This document shows positions 4,927 to 10,640 of a stretch of DNA of 60,647 nucleotides, piece after piece (the first letter of the stretch is position 1; every line of letters starts with the position of its first letter). The notes below the pieces were generated by a model. That model saw nothing but the letters and a program-made list of their open reading frames with translations, did no database searches and was not told where the DNA came from. Source of the stretch: Erysipelotrichaceae bacterium (GTDB lineage Bacteria; Bacillota_I; Bacilli_A; Erysipelotrichales; Erysipelotrichaceae); the NCBI GenBank assembly GCA_017404205.1, contig JAFRCV010000011.1:1-60647 (forward strand). Reading direction: 5' to 3'. The position numbers and the translations under genes are program-made.

Positions 4927-5103
4927 ATGAAAGCGTTTTTTGAAGAATACGGATTAGCTGTAGTAGCTGCTTTTGTGATTATTTTATTACTTTCGGTATC
5001 AAAGAATTTAGGTGATGTTGTTGATGCAGATGCTTCAGGTATTATGGGTAATTTTAGTGAAAAATTAACCGATAGAATCGTTGAGTATAATTTGCAACCA
5101 TAG
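4927..5103 (+). CDS. Small pilin-like membrane protein (58 aa), first gene of the Tad-like operon
   Basis: A 58-aa protein that starts MKAFFEEYGL, continues as a single hydrophobic helix (about residues 10-23) and ends as a short polar tail. A ribosome site AAAGGAG lies a few bases upstream, and the stop is 15 bases before the ATPase gene, itself preceded by AAAGGAGG. Size and architecture resemble Flp/Tad pilins, including a Glu-Tyr pair just before the helix, but there is almost no leader peptide and no Gly at the expected cleavage point. The same start tag recurs in four other small proteins of this operon. It is the best candidate for the major subunit. Confidence 0.75.
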   Translation: MKAFFEEYGLAVVAAFVIILLLSVSKNLGDVVDADASGIMGNFSEKLTDRIVEYNLQP

Positions 5104-5118
5104 AAAGGAGGATGACGG

Positions 5119-6186
5119 ATGGCTTTAGAAATAAACGAAGAATTATTTAAAGAGTTATGGCCACTAATTCAAAACGATAACATTACCGATATTAAATGGA
5201 ATGGTTCAGCGTTATGGATTACTGATTTAAATAAAGGTCGATATATTGATGAAAATATTAAGCTTAATGAAGATTGGCTAAGAATTTTTACTAACTTAAT
5301 AGCTAATTCAGTTAATGAAAACTTTAATATATCTAAGCCTTCATTAAAAGCTGAAACTGATGAATTAAGAATTCAAGCTGTTCATAATAGTGTTTCTGGA
5401 AATAATGATATTTGTTTAGCCATCCGTAAGACCCCATCTTATTCAAGACTTTTAAAACAAGATTTAAAGAAAAACGGATATGCGAATGATTTTATTTTAA
5501 AACTATTGCCATGTTTAATGCGTTCCCATTTATCTGGCGTAATTACAGGTGATGTCGGTGCTGGCAAAACAGAATTAGAAAAATATTTATGTAGTTATAT
5601 ACCCGATAGTGATCCTATAGTGACTGTTGAAGATACTCTTGAAATGAAATTAAAAAAGCTTTATCCAAAAAAGGATATTTATTCTTTAAAAATAAATGAA
5701 ACATATTCCAATGAGCAAGCTATCAGAGATGCTTTAAGACTTAATACTAAATGGCTAATTATTTCAGAATCAAGAGGAAGAGAAATATTAAGAATTATTG
5801 AAGGTGCATCCTCTGGCTGCATAGCTCTTACTTCAATACATGCAGAAAATGTTTGGGAAGTTCCGGATCGAATTATTAATATGGCAGGTGATAATGTACG
5901 AGCAGGTTTAGAAAACGATATTTTTACTTTCTTTGATTATGCGATTAAGGTAAAAGCTGAATACTTGGAAAGTGGAATAAAAAGAAGAATAGATCAAATT
6001 TGTTTCTTTGATCGTAAGGATGGAATTAACACAACTAAAACAATAATTAAAGATGGTAAACCTTTAAGAGTAATGATTCCAGAGAGAATACTGAAGAAAT
6101 TTTATGATAATAACGAAACAGAATTCATATCAGCATATGTGAATTATTTAAAAGGTATAAAAAAGAACGTAGGTATTAGAAACTGA
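5119..6186 (+). CDS. CpaF/TadA-type secretion ATPase
   Basis: A 355-aa cytoplasmic ATPase expected to power pilus or pseudopilus assembly at the inner face of the membrane. The Walker A loop GDVGAGKT is at about residues 144-151, the Walker B-like strand WLIISESRG with catalytic Glu is at about 212-220, and the His box LTSIHAEN is near 236-244, as in the CpaF/TadA/VirB11 family. It is shorter than typical CpaF proteins, mainly at the N-terminus. It is the only motor ATPase in the cluster, so no separate retraction ATPase is seen. Its stop codon overlaps the start of the membrane-platform gene. Confidence 0.92.
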   Translation: MALEINEELFKELWPLIQNDNITDIKWNGSALWITDLNKGRYIDENIKLNEDWLRIFTNLIANSVNENFNISKPSLKAETDELRIQAVHNSVSGNNDICLAIRKTPSYSRLLKQDLKKNGYANDFILKLLPCLMRSHLSGVITGDVGAGKTELEKYLCSYIPDSDPIVTVEDTLEMKLKKLYPKKDIYSLKINETYSNEQAIRDALRLNTKWLIISESRGREILRIIEGASSGCIALTSIHAENVWEVPDRIINMAGDNVRAGLENDIFTFFDYAIKVKAEYLESGIKRRIDQICFFDRKDGINTTKTIIKDGKPLRVMIPERILKKFYDNNETEFISAYVNYLKGIKKNVGIRN

Positions 6187-7682
6187 TGAATAATATTTTA
6201 AAAAGATATAGTTTGAAAGAATTAAAAAATGACATTAGAAAATATGGTTTTAATTATGCGACAAAGGATTTTATAATAGAATCATTTTTTATAATTTTGG
6301 CAGTATTAGCGATAGCTTTCATTTCGCATCTAAGATACCAATATATTCTAATTTTAATTTCTATATCAATCTTATTGATTCCTTTTATCATTCATGCATG
6401 GTTTAAACAAAATTATAATATTAAAAATTTCTCACTTTTGTCTGACTATCTAACAAATATTATTCCCACTTTTATTCAAAAGACAAAGATACGATTTTGT
6501 CTTGGCGAATTATTTGATATTACAACCGGTAATATGAAAAACTGTATCGCAAAAGCTATAGATTATATTGATAAAACTGTAGATGACCCAGCTTTACATA
6601 AAAATGCGTTAAAGATAATAGAAGATGAATATCAAAATTCAAGAGTTATTTCTGTGCATAAATTATTGTTAAACATTGAATCTTCCAATTCAATAAACTA
6701 TGAAGATGTATGTGCGAATATGTATGAGGATATTGAAAGATGGATTAAGAGAGTTTTTTCTTTTCAAAAAGACTTAAAAAATCGTCGGAACAAACTATTA
6801 GCTTTATGCGTTATTTCCCTTTTGTTAAACAGCGCAATAAACTACATGTATATTGGTAATGATTATTTTGTTGGTTATTTAGACAGCAATATGTATCAAA
6901 TATCTACTTTATTATTTATAGTTTTCAATTTACTAATAATAACTATTATTTTGACTAAGTTACATGGAGAGTGGTTAATCAATGATACCTATTATTTAAA
7001 AGATGAAAATATAAAAAATAAATATCTTGTGTATAAAAAAGGAAAAAGCAAAAATAAAATACTAACAATTATTATTTCAAGTTTTATTCTTGCATCATCT
7101 ATTTATTTCTTTTTAAAAGGACAAATAATAATTAGTTTAATATGCATTTTCTTTTCGATAATAGTTTTAATGAATAAAAATTTACGCTATAAGAAAGCAT
7201 ATAAAACAATAAACAAAGCATTCGCAATTGAATTTCCAATTTGGTTAAGAGAAATATCATTAAATTTGAATAATTATACTGTTCTAAATGCGATAGAACA
7301 TTCTCAAAATAGCGTTTCTTATCCTTTAAGAAAAGAGCTGAGAATGTTTATTGATAAAGTTAGAAAAGACCCAACATCTGTAAAAGCTTATAATGAATTT
7401 TTAGAAGATTTTGATTTAGAAGATGCCAGATCAAGTATGAAAGTTTTATATGCATTACAAAACATCAGCAAAGATAACATTAACAAACAAACATCAAATC
7501 TTATTAGTAGAAATCAAGATATGTTAGACAAAGCAGAATCATTGAGGAACATGGACTCGATAGCTGGGATTGAAATGATTGGCTATTTGCCAATAGGATT
7601 ACTTACAATTCAAATGCTCATATCGATGTATTCAATATTTATTTACATGATGAATATGTTGAATGGTGCAATACAATTATGA
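6186..7682 (+). CDS. TadB/TadC-like inner-membrane platform protein (T2SS F-like)
   Basis: A 498-aa membrane protein with about seven hydrophobic segments (near residues 27-48, 51-73, 204-224, 239-259, 291-312, 313-329 and 464-493). The cytoplasmic part FPIWLREISLNLNNYTVLNA (about 350-370) followed by a helical region resembles the GspF/TadC helical domain. Tad systems usually have two paralogous platform proteins, TadB and TadC, each near 300 aa. Here one longer protein may do both jobs, with a helical cytoplasmic region in each half. The start overlaps the ATPase stop (TGATG), so translation is coupled. Sequence identity to known TadB/C looks low. Confidence 0.75.
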   Translation: MNNILKRYSLKELKNDIRKYGFNYATKDFIIESFFIILAVLAIAFISHLRYQYILILISISILLIPFIIHAWFKQNYNIKNFSLLSDYLTNIIPTFIQKTKIRFCLGELFDITTGNMKNCIAKAIDYIDKTVDDPALHKNALKIIEDEYQNSRVISVHKLLLNIESSNSINYEDVCANMYEDIERWIKRVFSFQKDLKNRRNKLLALCVISLLLNSAINYMYIGNDYFVGYLDSNMYQISTLLFIVFNLLIITIILTKLHGEWLINDTYYLKDENIKNKYLVYKKGKSKNKILTIIISSFILASSIYFFLKGQIIISLICIFFSIIVLMNKNLRYKKAYKTINKAFAIEFPIWLREISLNLNNYTVLNAIEHSQNSVSYPLRKELRMFIDKVRKDPTSVKAYNEFLEDFDLEDARSSMKVLYALQNISKDNINKQTSNLISRNQDMLDKAESLRNMDSIAGIEMIGYLPIGLLTIQMLISMYSIFIYMMNMLNGAIQL

Positions 7683-8089
7683 AAATTATCATTCGAATAT
7701 TTGGACTAATCGTTATTGGAATTGTTTCTACATTAATAATTATGCAAAGTTTTGAAATGAATATTTATTATGATGAATTAGTTAAAATAAGTTCTTTAGC
7801 GATGGCTAATACACAAATAGTGATGGCAGAAAATATTGAAGATAAATATCATGGAACTCAGAATTCAAGAATCTTAATTAGTAATAATGATGAATATATA
7901 AACTTATATAGAGACAATTTAAATAAATTAATTAATACCAACGCAAAATATACAATTAGCGACCATTATGCTGACTATCAAAAAGGATTGTTATATGTAA
8001 AAGTACAATGCGAATATAGGACTATTAACGGTAAGAAAAAGATGTATCAAAACAAATTATTAAACATAATTGATGTGGTAGAAGAATGA
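7679..8089 (+). CDS. Small membrane-anchored pseudopilin-like protein
   Basis: A 136-aa protein with one N-terminal membrane helix (about residues 5-24) and a polar outer domain of roughly 110 residues. Architecture is that of TadE-like or minor pseudopilin proteins, but no specific motif is seen. It starts MKIIIRIFGL, lacking the Glu-Tyr tag of the other small proteins in the operon. It overlaps both neighbours by four bases (ATGA), which argues for a fixed stoichiometric role in the same machine. Confidence 0.7.
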   Translation: MKIIIRIFGLIVIGIVSTLIIMQSFEMNIYYDELVKISSLAMANTQIVMAENIEDKYHGTQNSRILISNNDEYINLYRDNLNKLINTNAKYTISDHYADYQKGLLYVKVQCEYRTINGKKKMYQNKLLNIIDVVEE

Positions 8090-9426
8090 AAAAAATATTT
8101 ATCTATTTTTTAATAATAGCCATTATACTGGTATCAATCAATAAGAAAATATTTGCTGAAGATAATTTGCCACTTGGATTTGGTGAATGGACAACAGAGT
8201 ATAAGGAAGACAAGCATAGAATTGAGATGATTCAGTATGGAAGAAAAGTTCCTATAAAATGGTCAGACTATAGTAGTCAAATTCCTAATAATCCATACTA
8301 CAAAATAGGTGATGTAAAAATTGATTATTATGCTCATGATGGAAAGGAATATACCTGGCCCAATGCAGATGCAAAGACATTATTTATTTGGGATTTTAAA
8401 GAAAAGACCAAGTTAGTTTATTTTTATGCCGATGTAGATACTTGCGTTGACTCTAATTATTCAAATTATACAGCCCCACCATTACAACTATATTGTGATG
8501 ACAAGCTGATAGCTAGTGTTGGCTTTCATCATTATTTAAAAAACTGGGAGCCAGACATTGATTGCGATTGTTCAATATTAAAATTAGACATGTCTTATGG
8601 TGGAGGTGAAGGAAGGAATAGAACATATATAGTTTCCACAAAAGCCACAACTCAAACAGACCAATATGCTTATGTTGAAAACTGGAGCGATGGTCAAGAT
8701 TGGCGTTTTGAAAAGGAATATCCTCACCTTTATGGAGAAGAAAGCCAAATACCTGTTCAAAGAATGGTTTATTCCTATCCAGTCAAATACAGGATTGATT
8801 ATGATGCCGATGGTGGAGAAATAATTGGTGAAATTATAAGTGAATATACAATATTTGATGAAGTTCTTCTTCCAATGGCAACAAAACGCGGTTATGAATT
8901 CCTTGCTTGGACAAATCAAAATGGAATAATTTCAAAAATAGATGTTGGCAGCGTTGGTGATTTAAAGTTATTTGCTCAATATGAAAGAAGGAAACCTGAC
9001 ATTTTTGTTGCTAATAAAGCTTTTGATGAGGAAGATAGATATATTTATTTATCTGAACTTTTAGAATATGTAGAAGCTAGTGCAATTGATGAACTTGATG
9101 GAAGTATTAGTGACAAGATAGCTATTGAATATATCAAATATGAAGATAATATCTCATATAATCCAGACTATTTAGATATCAGTAAAAAACAAGTTGTCGA
9201 AATATCATTTTATGTTTATAACTCAGGTGGTAAAAAAGCTTCCATAAAAAAGAAATACTATATATTGGGAAAAGGCGAAACAATTGATAATTTAAGATAT
9301 ATAAAAATATATTCACGCTTTCTAAAAGAAGAATATAACGATTCAATAGATGATCGTTCTATATGGAAAACAGAAGATTATCAAAGCACTTTAAAAAAAG
9401 CTTATCAAAAATATAAAGGAGAATGA
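8086..9426 (+). CDS. Secreted protein with InlB B-repeat and Ig-like DUF5011-type domain
   Basis: A 446-aa protein with a cleavable-looking signal peptide (about residues 1-24, ending FAED). An N-terminal domain of about 210 residues is unrecognised. It is followed by one Listeria-Bacteroides (InlB B) repeat around residues 240-300 (YDADGGEI ... RGYEFLAWT ... LKLFAQYE), then an Ig-like stretch with EASAIDELDGSISDKI as in DUF5011-type domains. No sortase signal or C-terminal membrane segment is present. Its place inside the pilus-like operon, coupled by ATGA overlaps, suggests a tip adhesin or a secreted substrate of the machine. Confidence 0.8.
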   Translation: MKKIFIYFLIIAIILVSINKKIFAEDNLPLGFGEWTTEYKEDKHRIEMIQYGRKVPIKWSDYSSQIPNNPYYKIGDVKIDYYAHDGKEYTWPNADAKTLFIWDFKEKTKLVYFYADVDTCVDSNYSNYTAPPLQLYCDDKLIASVGFHHYLKNWEPDIDCDCSILKLDMSYGGGEGRNRTYIVSTKATTQTDQYAYVENWSDGQDWRFEKEYPHLYGEESQIPVQRMVYSYPVKYRIDYDADGGEIIGEIISEYTIFDEVLLPMATKRGYEFLAWTNQNGIISKIDVGSVGDLKLFAQYERRKPDIFVANKAFDEEDRYIYLSELLEYVEASAIDELDGSISDKIAIEYIKYEDNISYNPDYLDISKKQVVEISFYVYNSGGKKASIKKKYYILGKGETIDNLRYIKIYSRFLKEEYNDSIDDRSIWKTEDYQSTLKKAYQKYKGE

Positions 9427-9573
9427 ATGCGTAAAATATTTTCAAGTTATGGATTATTTATATTAGCTCTATTCTCGAGTGTTGTTGGAATTAATATTTT
9501 TATAAACGTTATTTTATATGGAGATTCTTCGTTATTTAGCTTGGTAAAAAATTGGATAAATAGCCTAATATGA
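9427..9573 (+). CDS. Small single-helix membrane protein (48 aa) of the Tad-like operon
   Basis: A 48-aa protein starting MRKIFSSYGL with one hydrophobic helix (about residues 9-31). The ATG follows the previous stop codon with no gap, and its own stop overlaps the next start (ATGA). The start tag closely resembles MKAFFEEYGL of the 58-aa protein, so the two are probably paralogous pilin-like subunits. No catalytic or metal site is possible at this size. Confidence 0.65.
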   Translation: MRKIFSSYGLFILALFSSVVGINIFINVILYGDSSLFSLVKNWINSLI

Positions 9574-9995
9574 AAAGCATTTTTGAAGAATACGCCGACA
9601 CACTACTATCTGTCGTTATTAGTCTAATAATCATTAGTTCCTTTGTGAGCATTTTCCTAACAATGACTTTACATTCTAGCTCAAGAATATTAGCAAAAGA
9701 AACAATACAAAAGATTTCATATTCTAATAACGCAACAATAGGAATAAGAACCTTTGAAGTAAAAGATATACTTGTTTATAAAAATGAGGATTTCAATTTT
9801 TATGAACGCATCACTGCTACTAATAATCGTGGAGATTTTGGTGGCGAAGATGAAGATATAAGGAGTTTTGTTCATATTTTTAACAATGTTGACACAACAA
9901 CACTCGGCGAAAAAGAAATAATTTATTGTCTTTCTTATAATGATGAAACAATATTTAAAAAAGCATCAGTAATAGTAGTTGATGATAAGGAGTAA
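9570..9995 (+). CDS. Membrane-anchored minor pseudopilin-like protein
   Basis: A 141-aa protein starting MKSIFEEYAD, with a membrane helix at about residues 10-32 and an outer domain of about 105 residues. The N-terminal eight residues nearly repeat those of the 58-aa protein (MK-x-[FI]-F-E-E-Y), while the outer domains differ. A larger globular domain on a shared N-terminal helix is how minor pilins relate to major ones. Function is inferred from context only. Confidence 0.7.
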   Translation: MKSIFEEYADTLLSVVISLIIISSFVSIFLTMTLHSSSRILAKETIQKISYSNNATIGIRTFEVKDILVYKNEDFNFYERITATNNRGDFGGEDEDIRSFVHIFNNVDTTTLGEKEIIYCLSYNDETIFKKASVIVVDDKE

Positions 9996-9998
9996 GTA

Positions 9999-10325
9999 AT
10001 GAAAACTTTAGTTGAACATATGACAAGCATGATAATAATGTTTATTTTAATATTTGTATTCACAATAGTAATGAGTGTTGGCTTACAAATAATGAATGCA
10101 CGCTTAATACACACTAGTGCTATTGAGAAGTTGCAATCATCATTTTATACAGTTAGCCTAGATGACATAAATACTAATTTGGATTCTAATTGGTATTTTG
10201 AAATTAATGAACTATCTTCAATTAATACGCGAAAAGATTATGAAGTTGCCTTAAATTATGAAATAAAATTGCCATTGTTTAGCAATGAAAATATAAAAGG
10301 TAGAATTGTAGGGTATGCAAGATGA
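9999..10325 (+). CDS. Membrane-anchored minor pseudopilin-like protein
   Basis: A 108-aa protein starting MKTLVEHMTS, with a membrane helix at about residues 10-30 and a polar C-terminal domain. It lies 3 bases after the previous gene and overlaps the next by four bases. The N-terminal tag is a weaker version of the operon's shared M-[KR]-x-h-h-[ES] pattern. The layout resembles TadE/TadF-type minor pilins; no family motif is recognised. Confidence 0.68.
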   Translation: MKTLVEHMTSMIIMFILIFVFTIVMSVGLQIMNARLIHTSAIEKLQSSFYTVSLDDINTNLDSNWYFEINELSSINTRKDYEVALNYEIKLPLFSNENIKGRIVGYAR

Positions 10326-10420
10326 GAGAACTGTTGAGTGAATATTTTGAATTATTATTAGAAGCCACATGTATGTTGATATTCATTACAATTGTATTTA
10401 AGATAATGGAAATGCTATGA
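10322..10420 (+). CDS. Very small membrane peptide (32 aa), last gene of the Tad-like operon
   Basis: A 32-aa peptide starting MRELLSEYFE followed by a single hydrophobic helix (about residues 11-28). Its ATG overlaps the previous stop (ATGA) exactly as elsewhere in the operon, and it carries the Glu-Tyr tag, which together make it more than a chance frame. No terminator is evident right after it; the next clear signal is the T-box leader. Confidence 0.5.
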   Translation: MRELLSEYFELLLEATCMLIFITIVFKIMEML

Positions 10421-10445: not shown

Positions 10446-10640
10446 GGTGGAGTAATGAAGGAAAGAGTAATTAACAAGAGTTAAAAGAGAGTCCTTGTAA
10501 GGTGTAAAAGGATAGCTTAAGTTAATGAACATGGTTCTGGAACATCTATTACGATATGTAGTGATAGACGCTTACTAGCGTTAAAGGTTAAAGTTAAAAA
10601 TGAAGGTGGAACCGCGCTATGCGCCCTTTGGCCACCTTTT
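10446..10640 (+). promoter_or_regulatory. T-box riboswitch leader of metG
   Basis: The conserved T-box core AAGGTGGAACCGCG lies at 10603-10616, followed by a terminator whose arms are AAGGTGG and CCACCTT (10603-10609 and 10632-10638) with a T run. An ATG triplet at 10531-10533 is a likely methionine specifier in the 3' side of Stem I, and a TATAAT at 10440-10445 could start the transcript. Uncharged tRNA-Met would stabilise the antiterminator and switch on metG. The variable base of the bulge is A (TGGA), which would pair with a U discriminator. Confidence 0.9.

Follow-up and report, generated by a model that had tools for sequence, protein, structure and literature searches.

A Tad-like operon of an Erysipelotrichaceae bacterium with probable natively leaderless pilins

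Introduction

Can the subunits of a type IV filament be made without a leader peptide? Pilins are found in genomes by their leader motif, and the question is raised by an operon in a 60,647-nucleotide stretch of DNA from a gut-type Erysipelotrichaceae bacterium (assembly GCA_017404205.1, contig JAFRCV010000011.1, positions 1 to 60,647; hereafter the window), where five small proteins carry a common N-terminal tag with a membrane helix directly after it. Leader cleavage by a prepilin peptidase is regarded as required before any type 4 filament can be assembled (review PMC10191384). The initial annotation of this DNA had proposed that the tag is the N-terminus of a mature pilin, that translation starts there with no room for a leader, so that the prepilin peptidase is avoided, and that the presence of one tag on otherwise different outer domains points to co-assembly.

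The operon and its parts

The operon (4927-10420) comprises nine genes in the following order:

4927..5103, + strand: p1, 58 aa, likely major pilin, putatively leaderless (MKAFFEEYGLAVVAAF...; tag MKAFFEEYG), of a family found in 38 loci
5119..6186, + strand: CpaF/TadA-type assembly ATPase, 355 aa (Pfam T2SSE, 2.6e-19, over cut-off)
6186..7682, + strand: polytopic membrane protein, 498 aa, by position and size a probable fused TadB-TadC platform
7679..8089, + strand: p6, 136 aa, N-terminal-TM protein and possible minor pilin with a weaker tag (MKIIIRIFGL), of a family found in at least 28 loci
8086..9426, + strand: secreted protein, 446 aa, with an N-terminal hydrophobic signal and a List_Bact repeat, possibly a tip or surface adhesin
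9427..9573, + strand: p2, 48 aa, putatively leaderless tag protein (MRKIFSSYG), a stop codon abutting its ATG; orthologues in genus relatives
9570..9995, + strand: p3, 141 aa, putatively leaderless tag protein with an outer domain (MKSIFEEYA); p1 HMM match 1.7e-8
9999..10325, + strand: p4, 108 aa, TadE-like, putatively leaderless pseudopilin (MKTLVEHMT), of a family found in 41 loci
10322..10420, + strand: p5, 32 aa, putatively leaderless tag protein (MRELLSEYF), the upstream stop 6 codons off

All five tagged N-termini, each running directly into its membrane helix, are as originally described. Four of the five genes do lie within 9427-10420, the interval first assigned to them, but the fifth, that of the likely major pilin p1, begins at 4927.

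The ATPase also matches the NCBIfam TadA-type model TIGR03819 at 1.3e-19, which is under the curated cut-off of that model. The 498-aa membrane protein had no match in a Pfam scan; in other loci its slot is occupied by a pair of proteins (287 and 249 aa), and the T2SSF matches found in its counterparts (0.1 and 0.0033) are both sub-threshold. Of the tag, p6 has Lys2 and Phe8-Gly9-Leu10 and is without Glu6; in some loci its family cross-matches the TadE-like one, and it is a possible glutamate-lacking minor pilin. The 446-aa secreted protein matches Flg_new at 5.8e-5, under cut-off. Searches with Pfam and NCBIfam revealed no pilin family among the window proteins, and a Pfam scan of the tag-bearing p1 to p4 proteins gave no family over its cut-off. 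Directly past the operon, at window 10446-10631 and 5' of a methionyl-tRNA synthetase gene, there is a T-box leader (RF00230, 109 bits).

Gene starts and the shared tag

The claim that there is no room for a leader holds here and in dozens of relatives, from the in-frame stops and the placement of the Shine-Dalgarno sequences. Stops are found 4, 0, 2, 1 and 6 codons upstream of p1, p2, p3, p4 and p5 respectively, and between stop and start none of these five window genes has an ATG, GTG, TTG or CTG. In the p1 and p4 families an upstream in-frame stop lies no more than nine codons away in 21/38 and 37/41 genes, and relatives of p1 usually have a strong Shine-Dalgarno sequence just 5' of the start. 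The main pilin of three loci (L051, L053 and L056) has ATA at the site of the ATG, TTG or GTG start of relatives, at a comparable distance from the Shine-Dalgarno sequence; translation begins either at this ATA or at a GTG that precedes it by three codons.

Over residues 2-9 the five tags have a mean pairwise BLOSUM62 score of 12.6, where sets of five drawn at random from other N-terminal-TM proteins give -3.65 +/- 2.96, and not one of 20,000 such sets scored as high; Glu or Asp at positions 6 and 7 is found in only 2-3% of background proteins. M1, K2, E7 and Y8 are invariant in an 18-row alignment of p1, and the p4 family has E6 in 30 of its 35 distinct tags.

Relatives of the window CpaF were found in 55 of the 196 genomes of the order, and 40 loci, followed by 16 more, were read. 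The main protein is present in 38 loci as MK[AS]FFEEYG or a close variant and the TadE-like protein in 41, mostly as MKxxhE, and p5 has counterparts of 32-37 aa in relatives, Lachnospiraceae among them. A p1 search across 392 genomes of the phylum gave strong matches in the order only, the weaker ones being orphan, distant or chance-like. The same CpaF clade and the same kind of tag are found in Lachnospiraceae, among them Lactonifactor longoviformis DSM 17459, Roseburia porci and Lachnobacterium bovis DSM 14045. In the distinct EYG-type tags of Lachnospiraceae (14 main and 27 minor, chosen by eye) residue 8 is always Tyr or Phe and residue 7 always Glu or Gln. In one genome (G052) a serine-recombinase element is apparently inserted in the main pilin gene at about codons 10-12 (L044:11289-12839, L127:1500-1630), with ATTAGTGCT on both halves.

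Uncultured Bacilli have the same CpaF clade with a variant tag, MKEATGE. In one sublineage of these (L174-L227) MK[EA]A[TS]GE / M[RK][DE][AS]xG is common to the main and minor subunits, and the Gly6 of both (MKEATGE, MREAIGG) could be the end of a six-residue leader.

The tags of different subunits change jointly between lineages (p 2e-4, a value that is indicative only, coming from 15 hand-picked loci with tags partly entered by hand), which fits the proposal that subunits with one tag and different outer domains are co-assembled. As the genes are adjacent and the p1 HMM also matches p2 and p3, tandem duplication alone might be thought to explain the likeness, leaving a tag without shared function; it would seem very improbable, given that the tag is kept in all subunits over deep divergence next to wholly different outer domains, and given this same joint shift.

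Register with mature pilins

HMMs were built only from tag-bearing loci and set against canonical Flp and TadE proteins of the same order. The p1 HMM picks out canonical Flp (best E 3e-4), with E7 placed on E(+5) of GQGMVEYGLI; in each of its best matches to canonical Flp residue 7 coincides with the EYGL Glu, which brings Glu7-Tyr8-Gly-Leu of p1 into line with Glu5-Tyr6-Gly-Leu of the mature pilins. The same register was returned by hhalign of the p1 family against canonical Flp (E 2.9e-5), and the p4 HMM finds canonical TadE at an E of 8.6e-7 at best, E6 being placed on +5. Among 177,635 PDB sequences the top match was the mature PilA of Caulobacter, again in this register, with an E of 0.37 that is not significant alone. 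Flp_Fap (PF04964) is the commonest weak Pfam match, seen in 7/18 members with a best E of 0.013, below its curated cut-off.

The profile alignments therefore agree on a single register, with Glu7-Tyr8 on Glu5-Tyr6 of canonical Flp, as expected if the tag is the N-terminus of a mature pilin. With Glu7 of p1 and Glu6 of p4 on mature +5, Met1 comes to stand at -2 or -1, the place of the canonical cleavage Gly; for p4, where residue 6 is on +5, it is Met1 itself that stands in for Gly(-1). In the Tad pilus of Caulobacter, Glu19 and Tyr20 of the precursor (mature 5 and 6) form a core hydrogen-bond network (PMC11067988), and this Glu-Tyr pair is kept in the tag.

The AlphaFold2 model of p1 is one helix of residues 2-53 (pLDDT 89), and since it begins at residue 2 the tag belongs to the helix, as in mature Flp pilins. 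That of p4 (pLDDT 88) has a helix of residues 2-47 and a three-stranded antiparallel sheet. Foldseek gave no significant match for the p4 model; pseudopilins surfaced only on structural re-alignment to the nearest solved folds, where six of the seven best chains were GspI/EpsI/XcpV minor pseudopilins at a modest Z of 6.1-4.4. The single-helix p1 model had, as expected, no Foldseek matches.

These results bear on whether the proteins are pilins at all. One genome (G030; L245, L246 and L247) encodes several proteins of 223-330 aa that open with this tag and helix (MKKFFEEYGSVAIIVIV, MRKIFNEYGGWVIVV) and lie apart from any operon of this kind, and has a ComGA-type ATPase only and no such CpaF; the tag is thus not exclusive to a Tad-like machine. 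These orphans, together with scores to the Flp and TadE families that are sub-threshold, would suit a reading in which the tag with its helix is an N-terminal membrane anchor of general use, the operon encoding some other CpaF-driven secretion or signalling device. Such a reading is nonetheless rather improbable, as the register matches mature Flp and TadE, the predicted fold of p4 is pseudopilin-like, and the tagged proteins are in the constant company of CpaF, the probable platform and often RcpC/CpaB.

Leader motif and prepilin peptidase

All 17 canonical Flp/TadE proteins of the order have the class III leader motif (Gly/Ala-X4-Glu/Asp ahead of a hydrophobic stretch); the 107 proteins of the p1, p4 and p6 families all lack it, as do the six window proteins. 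The canonical flp form in the order is MKNWLLDESG/QGMVEYGLII (the slash marks cleavage), and canonical leaders there have 10 to 17 residues.

Canonical Tad loci of the order have a peptidase gene beside the flp genes, and in one of them (L104) that gene is at the distal end, on the opposite strand. A tblastn search with 13 A24 proteins found a peptidase in 10 of 11 such loci, which served as positive control, and in none of 124 tag-bearing loci. The idea that prepilin peptidase is avoided is thus largely supported by the lack of both leader motif and in-locus peptidase gene, and in the cell the tag proteins would presumably go uncut. The window genome has a single, intact-looking A24 gene elsewhere, which is accounted for by its one comG operon, the pilins of which have an ordinary KG/ cleavage site (ComGC MNKKG/FTLLEM). 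Some A24 peptidase is encoded by 181/196 genomes in one count and by 45/48 in a second, and gene content therefore cannot exclude cleavage. Genome-wide A24 absence was considered as proof of no cleavage and found unusable, nearly all genomes having one for competence or other pili; five genomes have the system and no A24 gene, two of them 80-84% complete (G150, G186) and three carrying no completeness figure (G563, G574, G584).

It has to be asked whether the tag is itself a very short leader, which a ComC-type peptidase cuts after residue 9 (EEYG/L) as in ordinary Flp prepilins. The initial annotation had seen no Gly, which is incorrect for two of the five proteins as they have Gly9; this residue aligns with the EYGL Gly of mature Flp (+7) and not with the cleavage Gly. 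All 38 of 38 p1 proteins have Gly9, as would be expected of a cleavage site too, and the A24 peptidase outside the locus could supply the activity. Against this, Gly is found at residue 9 in only 7/41 p4 proteins and is replaced by Ala, Thr and Phe in p3, p4 and p5 of the window, the would-be +5 is without Glu, the profiles set the EYG of the tag on the EYG that lies past the cleavage site, and tag length and Glu6/7 are constant across subunits where canonical leaders vary over the range given above. Cleavage after residue 9 thus seems unlikely. It is more doubtful still that another protease trims these proteins, for example a type I signal peptidase freeing their ectodomains, as such a cut would leave almost nothing of the 58-, 48- and 32-aa proteins, and no point in support of it was found.

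Comparison with known systems

With the Tad/Flp system (type IVc; PilA-CpaF of Caulobacter and the canonical loci L102-L108) the operon shares a CpaF-type ATPase, a small, likely pilin of one predicted helix with Glu-Tyr-Gly-Leu, a TadE-like subunit and probably the platform genes, to which relatives add RcpC/CpaB. Unlike it, window-type loci are without leader peptide, class III motif and TadV gene, and their CpaF forms a separate clade and has no N-terminal extension such as canonical CpaF has. In a tree sampled by similarity to the window CpaF, canonical CpaF is one clade (99/98) apart from all tag-bearing CpaF. Some genomes of the order, for example G062 and G066, hold both a canonical and a tag-bearing Tad system.

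RcpC/CpaB was over cut-off in the loci of two relatives (6.6e-8 and 3.1e-11), with none seen in the window. The large secreted protein of one relative's locus (L040:5466-7832) has the thioester domain TED_2 (3e-12), which suggests a covalent tip adhesin; RcpC/CpaB and a thioester surface protein in relatives' loci would be fitting for an adhesive pilus.

The GspI/EpsI/XcpV minor pseudopilins of type II secretion start out as prepilins that GspO/PilD cleaves. Their fold modestly resembles the one predicted for p4, a long N-terminal helix and an antiparallel sheet, but their sequence identity to it is 10-15%. The Com pilins of the window genome belong to a type IV filament in the same cell, as the tag proteins would, and differ from them in having a usual cleavage site that is served by the A24 peptidase of the genome.

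Gram-positive tad-like loci without an apparent prepilin signal are described by Imam et al. (2011, PMC3244431) for C. kluyveri, C. cellulolyticum, C. bolteae and Desulfitobacterium hafniense. Going by that description, these loci are alike in having Tad-like biosynthetic genes and no prepilin-signal protein, and unlike in keeping tadV and tadZ, and the passages of that paper which deal with them do not propose leaderless pilins. In the literature searched no report of leaderless pilins or of peptidase-free type IV pili was found.

A proposed mode of assembly

Taken together, we consider it probable that this is the operon of a Tad-like (type IVc-like) filament machine with natively leaderless pilins. 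Translation would begin one or two residues ahead of the ordinary pilin +1, so that Met1, with Lys2 in the major pilin, takes the place of the leader Gly(-1). The subunits would enter the membrane by their N-terminal helix, with the N-terminus in and the C-terminus out, from where the CpaF ATPase and the TadB/C-type platform would extract and stack them without cleavage by a prepilin peptidase. In the filament Glu7-Tyr8 of the 58-aa pilin would be the counterpart of Glu5-Tyr6 in the Tad core hydrogen-bond network, with Glu6 of the TadE-like subunit playing the part of Glu5, and the tag would provide a common packing face for co-assembly of the 58-, 48-, 141-, 108- and 32-aa subunits; the tip may be occupied by the large secreted protein.

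A system of this sort would work like a Tad pilus, and leaderless type IVc variant is the most fitting name for it. It is not filed in the Flp prepilin family because leader and in-locus peptidase were both absent on testing.

Implications

If these pilins are indeed leaderless, then leader and peptidase would be dispensable and the system would be a natural test of their purpose. It would also be explained why such widespread systems have stayed unannotated. Through the conserved Glu-Tyr of the tag, the pilus core model could be tested directly by mutation. On balance it is rather likely that a leaderless branch of type IV filaments exists in Erysipelotrichales-type bacteria and Lachnospiraceae, in which case leader cleavage and N-methylation by a prepilin peptidase would not be universal needs of these machines.
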